36,946 nt of DNA from Desulfobacterales bacterium (GTDB lineage: Bacteria; Desulfobacterota; Desulfobacteria; Desulfobacterales; G020353555). The translations under genes and the position numbers were made by a program. The stretch's first letter is position 1, and each line of letters starts with the position of its first letter. The notes beneath the pieces are model-generated. The model was not told where the DNA came from and made no database searches. It saw nothing but the letters and a program-made list of their open reading frames with translations. The stretch covers positions 6,274,658 through 6,311,603 of the forward strand of contig CP070697.1 in assembly GCA_020353555.1 (NCBI GenBank), written 5' to 3'. Positions 2,261 through 21,075 of this stretch are shown here, in pieces.

Positions 2261-3214
2261 TTAGAAGACGCTGGCCGGATTGTAGTGCCTGCAAACGTTA
2301 TCTTTGGTGATGATCGGTGACGGCAGGACCGTTTTCAGGGGCGCTTTTGCGCCTGCCAGCACTGACATCATCCGGTGGAATGCTGCCCTTCCGATTTGGT
2401 CGGAATTATTCAGGCCGGTGGCAGCATAGTTGCTGCCCGCTGTCATGATGTTGACCAGCGCTGCCTTTTCACCATCCACACCGACCAGAAACATCTCTTG
2501 ACTTCGACCGGCATCTGCGATGGCCTTTTGTGCGCCCAGGCACATGGAGTCATTCTCACAGAACACCGCATCGATTTTCTTGAAACGGGCCAGCATCGCC
2601 TCCATGAGTTTGAAACCACCATCGGAGCTCCAACCGCCAAAATCAGGAGCCTTTTGCACCTCGATACCGGTTTTCTCCACAACCGAAAGCATGCCGTTGG
2701 TGCGATCAAGGCCAATGGAGTTGTCGGCCGGCCCTCCACGCAGGACTACCAAAAGTCCCTTGGCGTTCAACCTGTCGGCGATATACTTGCCATCCTGCAC
2801 CCCGATGGTGTAGTTGTCCGGACCGACCCAACTCGTGTATTCACCACCTTTGAGCAGCCTGTCGACCATTACCACCGGCACCTTGGCCTTTTTGATGCTG
2901 TCCAGCGCCGCAGGTGCTGCTTCCAGCCAGGCACCGCTCAGAATGATCCCGTCGACATTACGCGCCAGCACGTCCTCCACATCCCCCGTCAGTTTGGCGG
3001 CATCGCCACCTGCGTCGGTGATAAACAGCTTGATGTTCGGATAGAACGCCGCCTCCTCTTCGACCGCTTTAGACATACCGATGAAATATGGACAGCAAAG
3101 CGAAAAGTTAACCATTCCCAAACGAATTTCTTTTTCGGCCGCAAACGCAGGCAGGCCCAGCCCCCCAACCAGCATGAATACGATGATCACGGTTAAAATT
3201 GATTTTGCCTTCAT
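2261..3214 (-). CDS. RbsB-type sugar ABC transporter substrate-binding protein
   Basis: The 317-residue product begins with a signal peptide (residues 1 to about 25, hydrophobic VIIVFMLVGGLGLPAFA). The mature part has the type I periplasmic binding fold of the RbsB/LacI-like group (Peripla_BP_4), with EIRLGMVNFSLCCPYF at the start and VFCENDSMCLGAQKAI in the second lobe. It should capture a small ligand, probably a sugar or polyol, in the periplasm and pass it to the permease encoded upstream. The start has a strong AGGGAGGA site. It is the last gene of a minus-strand operon with aldehyde dehydrogenase, ATPase and permease. The ligand cannot be named; an AI-2-like or polyol ligand is as possible as a pentose. 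Confidence 0.88.
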   Translation of the reverse strand: MKAKSILTVIIVFMLVGGLGLPAFAAEKEIRLGMVNFSLCCPYFIGMSKAVEEEAAFYPNIKLFITDAGGDAAKLTGDVEDVLARNVDGIILSGAWLEAAPAALDSIKKAKVPVVMVDRLLKGGEYTSWVGPDNYTIGVQDGKYIADRLNAKGLLVVLRGGPADNSIGLDRTNGMLSVVEKTGIEVQKAPDFGGWSSDGGFKLMEAMLARFKKIDAVFCENDSMCLGAQKAIADAGRSQEMFLVGVDGEKAALVNIMTAGSNYAATGLNNSDQIGRAAFHRMMSVLAGAKAPLKTVLPSPIITKDNVCRHYNPASVF

Positions 3215-19935: not shown

Positions 19936-20696
19936 ATAAGATTGTCGACACCCATGCCCACATCTGCGATCCACTCTTCGACGAAGACCGGGAACAGGTG
20001 CTCGGTCGAGCCCAGGCCGCCGGGGTAACGGCCGTGATTGCCGTGGGTGAGGATTTGGCTGATGCCCGACGGAACTTGGCGTTGAGCCAGAAACACCCCC
20101 TGCTGCGTCCCACGGCCGGCCTTTATCCGACGCATCTCGACCGCGGTCAGGCGGACCAGATGCGGGCTTTCATTCGCCGGGAACGCCGCCGCCTGGTGGC
20201 CGTGGGCGAAGTGGGGCTGGATTTTTGGGTCGTCCAGGAAGACTCTGAAAAGGAGTTGCAGAAAGAGATTTTCGAAAGCTTTATCGCCTTGGGCAAAGAA
20301 CTTGACTTGCCGCTGAACGTGCATTCCCGCGCGGCCGGCCGGCATGCGGTGGCGCTCCTGCTGGCATGCGGGGCCACCCGGGTCCAACTGCATGCCTTCG
20401 ACGGCAAGGCCTCCGCCGCACAGCCGGCCGTCGAGGCCGGTTACTTCTTTTCCATCCCCACCTCCGTGGTCCGCTCCCGGCAAAAACAAAAACTCGTCAA
20501 GCACCTGCCGCTTTCTTCGCTGCTGGTGGAAACCGACAGCCCGGTGCTGGGCCCCACGCCCCAGGCGCGCAACGAACCCGCCAATATTGTTTTGGCGATT
20601 AAGGCCATCGCCGAGCTGAAAAATGTACCTGAGGAGGATGTCATCGAGGCGCTTGCCGAGAACACCCGGAGGCTGTACGGCGATCTTAACGGCTAA
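19932..20696 (+). CDS. TatD-family metal-dependent hydrolase/DNase
   Basis: A 254-residue TIM-barrel metallohydrolase. Metal ligands are H8 and H10 in VDTHAHICD, E93 in VGEVGLDFW, H131 in LPLNVHSRAAG, H154 in QLHAFDGKA and D202 in VETDSPVLG. The HAFDG motif differs from the common HCFSG of TatD but keeps the histidine. Family members are 3'-5' exonucleases involved in DNA repair or fragment clearance. Its ATG overlaps the stop of the VapC toxin gene, which suggests coupled translation and possible control by the toxin-antitoxin promoter; it may also just be a chance join. Confidence 0.88.
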   Translation: MNKIVDTHAHICDPLFDEDREQVLGRAQAAGVTAVIAVGEDLADARRNLALSQKHPLLRPTAGLYPTHLDRGQADQMRAFIRRERRRLVAVGEVGLDFWVVQEDSEKELQKEIFESFIALGKELDLPLNVHSRAAGRHAVALLLACGATRVQLHAFDGKASAAQPAVEAGYFFSIPTSVVRSRQKQKLVKHLPLSSLLVETDSPVLGPTPQARNEPANIVLAIKAIAELKNVPEEDVIEALAENTRRLYGDLNG

Positions 20697-20786: not shown

Positions 20787-21075
20787 GTAACTTCTCAATA
20801 AGTTGTGGTTCAGCCGTCGGATTCACCCCGATAGAGGGGTTATGGTATTTTCCGCAAGGCGATATGCGAGGTCTCGTCACCTGATTTTCACAGTGACCCC
20901 ATATTTGGGATGTTTTCTCAACACTTTATTATTACAAGCCATCATTTGTCCACATCGTAAATATGGGGTCACGTGGCCTCCGGTAGAATTCATAGCGACT
21001 TGCGGAAAATACCATAACCCGGCCTTTGGTTGACTTAACGCAGTCGATCTGCAACCTAACTTATTGAGAAGTTAC
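20787..21075. mobile_element. MITE-like element with nested inverted repeats
   Basis: The ends are a perfect 18-base inverted repeat, GTAACTTCTCAATAAGTT (20787-20804) and its complement (21058-21075). Inside lies a perfect 22-base inverted repeat (20837-20858 with 20999-21020; core TATGGTATTTTCCGCAAG), and inside that a 14-base one, GTGACCCCATATTT (20893-20906 with 20959-20972). The 289-base element holds no gene, and I see no clear target-site duplication. The structure fits a non-autonomous transposon (MITE) or a composite of nested palindromes. The 90 bases before it, from 20697, hold no gene. Confidence 0.6.

Follow-up and report, generated by a model that had tools for sequence, protein, structure and literature searches.

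Within the window, a 36,946-nucleotide stretch of the 6.84 Mb, single-contig genome of a Desulfobacterales bacterium, a 289-bp unit (20787–21075) has a TatD gene (end at 20696) on one side and a DUF123 reading frame (start at about 21090) on the other. Three perfect inverted repeats are nested in it, of 18 nt (arms 20787–20804 and 21058–21075), 22 nt (20837–20858 and 20999–21020) and 14 nt (20893–20906 and 20959–20972), exact to the base as a preliminary description of the sequence had reported, and they lengthen to arms of 27, 30 and 21 nt when mismatches are allowed. No perfect inverted repeat of at least 12 nt arose in any of 300 dinucleotide shuffles of the same 289 bases. Folded as RNA, the unit reaches -126 kcal/mol on the forward strand (z -11.2) and -120.2 kcal/mol on the reverse strand (z -10.5). 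It is short and without a transposase gene, and the open reading frames listed across it are short and mechanical (for example, 76 aa at 20803–21033), in agreement with the earlier statement that it carries no gene.

The unit is built of IS66-type ends around a folded core. The 18-nt repeats constitute its left and right outer terminal repeats, and in related genomes the first 16 bases of the left one also terminate one-ORF IS66-family insertion sequences. Between a left outer arm (20787–20839) and a right outer arm (21030–21075) is a conserved core of about 185 nt (20836–21021, forward strand), which is matched over its full length by a covariance model, R1, at 151 bits on the forward and 87 bits on the reverse strand. 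All on the forward strand, the outer and middle core stems are formed by a 5' arm at 20837–20866 and a 3' arm at 20991–21020, and the apical stem by arms at 20893–20913 and 20952–20972, enclosing a loop of variable sequence and near-constant length among relatives. In all 121 core copies collected by sequence or model match, the two inner repeats occur together, except in two short forms without most of the apical part. The idea that several independent palindromes had been inserted into each other is accordingly rejected for the two inner repeats, which are one conserved architecture; what survives of it is that the outermost repeat alone is exchangeable and also exists in a core-less 97-bp form.

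IS66-type ends and copies of the element

The 16-mer that forms the end of the window unit has exact matches in 99 of 389 genomes examined from the order, compared with four genomes, at most once in each, for the reversed control. Six pairs of these ends, 1.73–1.91 kb apart, enclose similar reading frames of 438–537 aa, and the one that was scanned is IS66 (PF03050, E 1.8e-18, above the cut-off; NF033517, E 1e-34, below its cut-off), so that the terminal inverted repeats are common to the unit and to autonomous one-ORF IS66-family elements in its relatives. Further, among 14 short core-less elements with IS66-type ends, the flanking octamers agree at 8/8 in eight and at 7/8 in four, and the core model matches none of the 14. 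Six of them (L324, L328, L330, L331, L334 and L335) have another perfect inverted repeat of 12–24 nt in the middle, and IS66-type ends look as if they often enclose palindromes.

Among 33 core-bearing units examined, both IS66-type ends could be placed in 18 with at most six mismatches, and the other 15, six of them CAGGG-ended, were left out of the duplication test. The flanks of the 18 units, 16 of which come from one genome, match at 4.44 of 8 positions against 2.16 when mispaired, with three at 8/8, a match equalled in none of 5000 permutations. Duplications of 8 bp thus go with these ends in core-bearing and core-less elements alike, and those of the core-bearing units are mostly decayed. 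The cited account of IS66, as far as it was available, gives 8-bp duplications and ends starting GTAAGCG (PMC11946415). The window family shares with MITEs derived from IS66-family insertion sequences the IS-like ends, the 8-bp duplications, the lack of genes and the short length; it differs in that its ends start GTAACTTCTC, that its middle is a conserved folded core and not a shortened insertion sequence, and that relatives of this core also occur between other ends. At the window copy, the flanks GCACTTTC and ATCTCTTC match at only 3 of 8 positions, and this copy is probably old, because its flanks no longer show a duplication.

The complete 289-bp unit has one copy in its own genome. Its outer part was found there twice more, as a 69-bp left end and as a 97-bp element, and the left outer arm recurs in both the truncated and the core-less form. 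The 97-bp element consists of query bases 1–53 and 246–289 with nothing between them, corresponding to the absence of 20840–21029 (boundaries set by eye and good to a few bases), and its flanks GCAGTTTC and GAAGTTTC are alike at 7 of 8 positions. The outer repeat therefore exists also as a MITE without the inner repeats, or as one that has lost them. A copy of the window's left end at G000:C1:3401169–3401237 (L002) stops about 20 bases into the core.

The core reaches further. A search of 40 relatives gave two core copies in one other genome, belonging to another family, in which the core is shared at 64% over 185 columns and the outer ends are different. With one of these two copies as query, 39 of the 389 genomes of the order gave matches (two candidates scored per genome), about 10 of them in the core and most others in the ends alone, and model R1 matched 37 of the 389 (six candidates scored per genome). 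When 150 candidates were scored in eight genomes, 18, 50, 26, 51, 8, 91, 6 and 46 model matches were obtained, counts in which both strands of some places are included; seven distinct core places were seen in the window's own genome. The matching stretches belong to records titled Desulfobacterales, Desulfobacteraceae, Deltaproteobacteria, Proteobacteria or Pseudomonadota. A wide taxonomic spread is rejected, as no record of another phylum matched the model among 80 tested of at least 119 stretches fitting a looser pattern. A phage or plasmid element is likewise rejected: the window unit had no match in phages, a 356-bp relative had none in plasmids, and of four viral contigs that fit the loose pattern none matched the model.

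Taken as a family, the element is a MITE with high confidence, and the preliminary description was right to propose one, on the strength of ends held in common with an IS66-family insertion sequence and 8-bp duplications at related units; the proposal fares less well for the window copy, which has no duplication. Similarly, its expectation of many copies is borne out for the core family, which has several dispersed copies, and not for the exact 289-bp unit, which is single in its genome.

Shortened cores were seen in L066 (295–398) and L343 (163–288), the latter with the outer stems kept and most of the apical part gone, and as model matches of about 103 nt in two genomes, G301 and G257.

Covariation and strand asymmetry in the core

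Model R1 was built from 17 aligned cores, the window copy among them, and their alignment yields a three-stem structure in which one copy or more has both bases changed at 25 of 48 pairs. A further 50 copies, which were not used in building the model and were found with it, were aligned by sequence without the model and gave the same three stems, with double changes in 33 of 40 pairs. In these 50 copies, 94.7% of cells are paired against 77.5% after shuffling, covariation stands at 0.465 against 0.146 in shuffled and at most 0.117 in slid alignments, and each of five measures is higher than in any of 500 shuffles or in any slide by one to three columns. Covariation beyond the controls, as looked for in a structured RNA, is thus present in copies that had been found with the model. 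The core is both multicopy and structured, and the choice offered earlier, in which single-copy conservation would point to a structured RNA instead of a mobile repeat, is a false one.

Other features of the core point the same way. At least two Watson-Crick types occur at 34 of 47 stem pairs and all four at 10 of them; after matches on opposite strands of one place were dropped (132 rows reduced to 101), 97 of 101 copies have a core of 179–190 nt; and, in three genomes, stem bases deviate from the genome consensus by 2.6–4.8% per side compared with 11–23% for unpaired bases. We hold with moderate confidence that the fold is kept by selection while the sequence changes. A known Rfam RNA is rejected, since the window has no match at the gathering score and core-overlapping matches of nine relatives at a relaxed threshold fall far below gathering scores.

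An unconstrained palindrome, or one repaired by template switching, is expected to have equal numbers of G.U and A.C oppositions. On the modelled strand, whose orientation is set mainly by the unequal loops, G.U outnumbers A.C by 119 to 27 genome-pair units (p 6e-15), and by 62 to 18 with helix ends excluded (p 8e-7), p-values that are too small as the copies are related, from counts made on an alignment fitted to the model. Because of this excess, the modelled strand probably folds, as RNA or single-stranded DNA. The two are not told apart by such counts, since G.T in DNA behaves like G.U, and RNA would be our preferred form; inspection by eye for promoters of the core gave no lead. The recent strand evidence is mixed, because the ratio of one-sided mismatches to one-sided G.U differs among three genomes, being 15 to 10 in the genome with most copies, 1 to 10 in another and 8 to 0 in that of the window.

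Could the fold be without function? It might be ordinary MITE filling, in which imperfect palindromes undergo template-switch repair at replication and the arms stay complementary as a result, a process that gives double changes without selection and that is reported in the literature. Among near-identical copies in three genomes, double changes are indeed far above independence (4 observed against 0.2 expected, 34 against 2.2, and 3 against 0.2), which such repair would fit as well; a 3x3 internal loop between the outer and middle stems is fully pairable in 23 of 96 copies, including the window's; and both strands fold stably. On the other hand, an excess of G.U over A.C on one strand is not expected from repair, a G.A opposition at the outer side of the 3x3 loop is kept in 72 of 96 copies instead of being repaired, and the unequal internal loops of 101 copies hold their lengths (left 25–29 nt, right mostly 15–19 nt) though unpaired. 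On balance, a functionless fold appears unlikely to us.

Probable exchange of ends around one core

By their ends, 74 of the 121 core copies could be labelled, 36 of these on one side only, and fall into seven classes, compared with fewer than 1% of shuffled flanks labelled per class; 47 copies have no recognised end. In an inverted-repeat scan of the flanks, a score of 12 was reached in 37 of 118 evaluable copies, against a null distribution with its 95th percentile at 11 and its 99th at 17.5.

Six further core copies were retrieved from the genome of the window, and all of them have CAGGG ends with 10-bp duplications. Over seven CAGGG-ended units, the flanks match at 6.14 of 10 positions against 2.52 (3 of 5040 permutations), and when lengths and shifts are scanned, 8 comes first for the IS66-type and 10 for the CAGGG-ended units, so that duplications are found at related core-bearing units of both kinds (18 IS66-type and seven CAGGG-type). 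The CAGGG end is present in 43 of the 389 genomes and its control in none. CAGGG ends and 10-bp duplications are also given for ISAs1 in the part of the cited source that was available (PMC11946415), and the likeness to ISAs1-like elements extends to both features; it stops at the transposase, as none was among seven reading frames tested near CAGGG ends (six belong to host families and one has no match).

A third end type matches, over 27–28 bases, both ends of a 1.6-kb insertion sequence carrying an IS4-family transposase (NF049925, 325 bits). Core-bearing units with these ends differ from IS4-family insertion sequences in having no IS4 transposase gene and no clear duplication length in the length and shift scan. 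The IS4 transposase had no match in seven of ten core-rich genomes, and three of those seven have IS4-ended cores. Beyond the IS66-type, CAGGG and IS4 ends, four further kinds recur. Some ends may have diverged rather than been exchanged, as the IS66, IS4 and two further types all have TAAC near the start.

In a tree of 99 cores (121 less those shorter than 170 nt, those containing N and any above eight from one genome), the end labels need about 10 changes, where seven kinds require a minimum of six, and at least four gains or losses of IS66-type ends are required by well-supported branches. The window core groups with IS4-ended cores, apart from the IS66-ended cores of another genome. The tree is weak, with 45 of 96 branches open and the window on a long branch, and the count of changes is rough.

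Drawing on the ends, the duplications at related units, the multicopy spread, the covariation, the strand asymmetry and the different ends around one core family, we put at roughly 0.6 the probability that this is a MITE family with exchangeable ends, the folded core of which has passed between transposases. The window element would then be a non-autonomous mobile element with the ends of an IS66-family insertion sequence, most likely moved whole by an IS66-type transposase acting in trans and recognising the outer repeats; IS66 as the mover of the window copy in particular is our inference from its ends. Its cargo would be the stretch of about 185 nt, one strand of which forms a three-stem hairpin, with related cargo carried elsewhere by the ends of other transposase families, namely IS4, ISAs1-like with 10-bp duplications, and further types. 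The fold may help the element to persist or spread under any transposase, and confidence in a particular role for it is low. More tentatively, the core could be a selfish folded module of about 185 nt, of RNA or single-stranded DNA, recaptured by the ends of successive transposon families, with an advantage from folding that is independent of the transposase.

The usual view of a MITE is of a shortened insertion sequence whose fate is tied to a single transposase. In the present family, the shape of a folded core is retained between ends that belong to various transposases and go with target duplications of more than one length. Cargo and vehicle are thereby separated, and one can test for what a mobile element without genes may come under selection. 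Among repeats with dedicated partners, REP/RAYT repeats have a tyrosine transposase and integron attC sites have the integron integrase, each with its motifs. ERIC, Correia/NEMIS, RUP and BOX are short repeats present in many copies between genes; their transcripts fold stably, and known insertion sequences have been proposed to move some of them, according to the available parts of the cited papers (PMC2229807, PMC3049150, PMC10969869). The core family resembles them in being small, mostly intergenic, multicopy and predicted to fold stably; it differs in having one folded core between ends from several transposase families, an arrangement that those parts do not describe for them. Searches of the open-licence literature gave no description of this element.

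It might instead be the core that moves, as RNA or single-stranded DNA with a preference for inserting centrally in palindromic MITEs; the outer ends would then be its landing sites. The core-less 97-bp element, with flanks alike at 7 of 8 and differing from the unit by a segment of about 190 bp in the same genome, would fit such movement, as would cores between seven kinds of ends, head-to-tail core copies (2855–3037 and 3070–3253 in L063, about 215 bases apart, and again in L066), and the palindromes of at least 12 nt in six of the 14 core-less IS66-ended elements, none of which match the core model. Yet the duplications lie outside the outer ends and have lengths fitting the outer transposases; among the matches listed, copies in G016, G185 and the window's genome share the outer arms and not the core alone; informal inspection brought no duplication to light at the border of the core; and the 97-bp form could have arisen by loss of the core. 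Movement of the core by itself is thus decidedly unlikely, and a MITE family that exchanges its ends is preferred.

A regulatory RNA of neighbouring genes (a terminator, attenuator or leader) would suit the very stable fold and the mostly intergenic position of the copies, only 7 of 101 of which overlap a called ORF of at least 90 aa, but is highly improbable and disfavoured, given the mixed orientation of neighbours at the 83 copies with both sides called (30 --, 27 ++, 16 +- and 10 -+, from crude longest-ORF calls that gave 18 of the 101 copies no called neighbour and the window, as left neighbour, an antisense frame over TatD) and given a comparison of two sites with a close relative, which has an empty site in one case and a site without the apical part in the other.

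At the first of these two sites, the relative is empty without a clean duplication; at the second, which is shared, it has lost about 91 nt including the apical hairpin. Empty and shortened sites of this kind are what old mobile elements look like. In a relative (G087), inspection by eye also showed two different dispersed repeats that have inverted arms (L360, 5676–5845 and 7409–7526), with many matches among relatives belonging to the same family.
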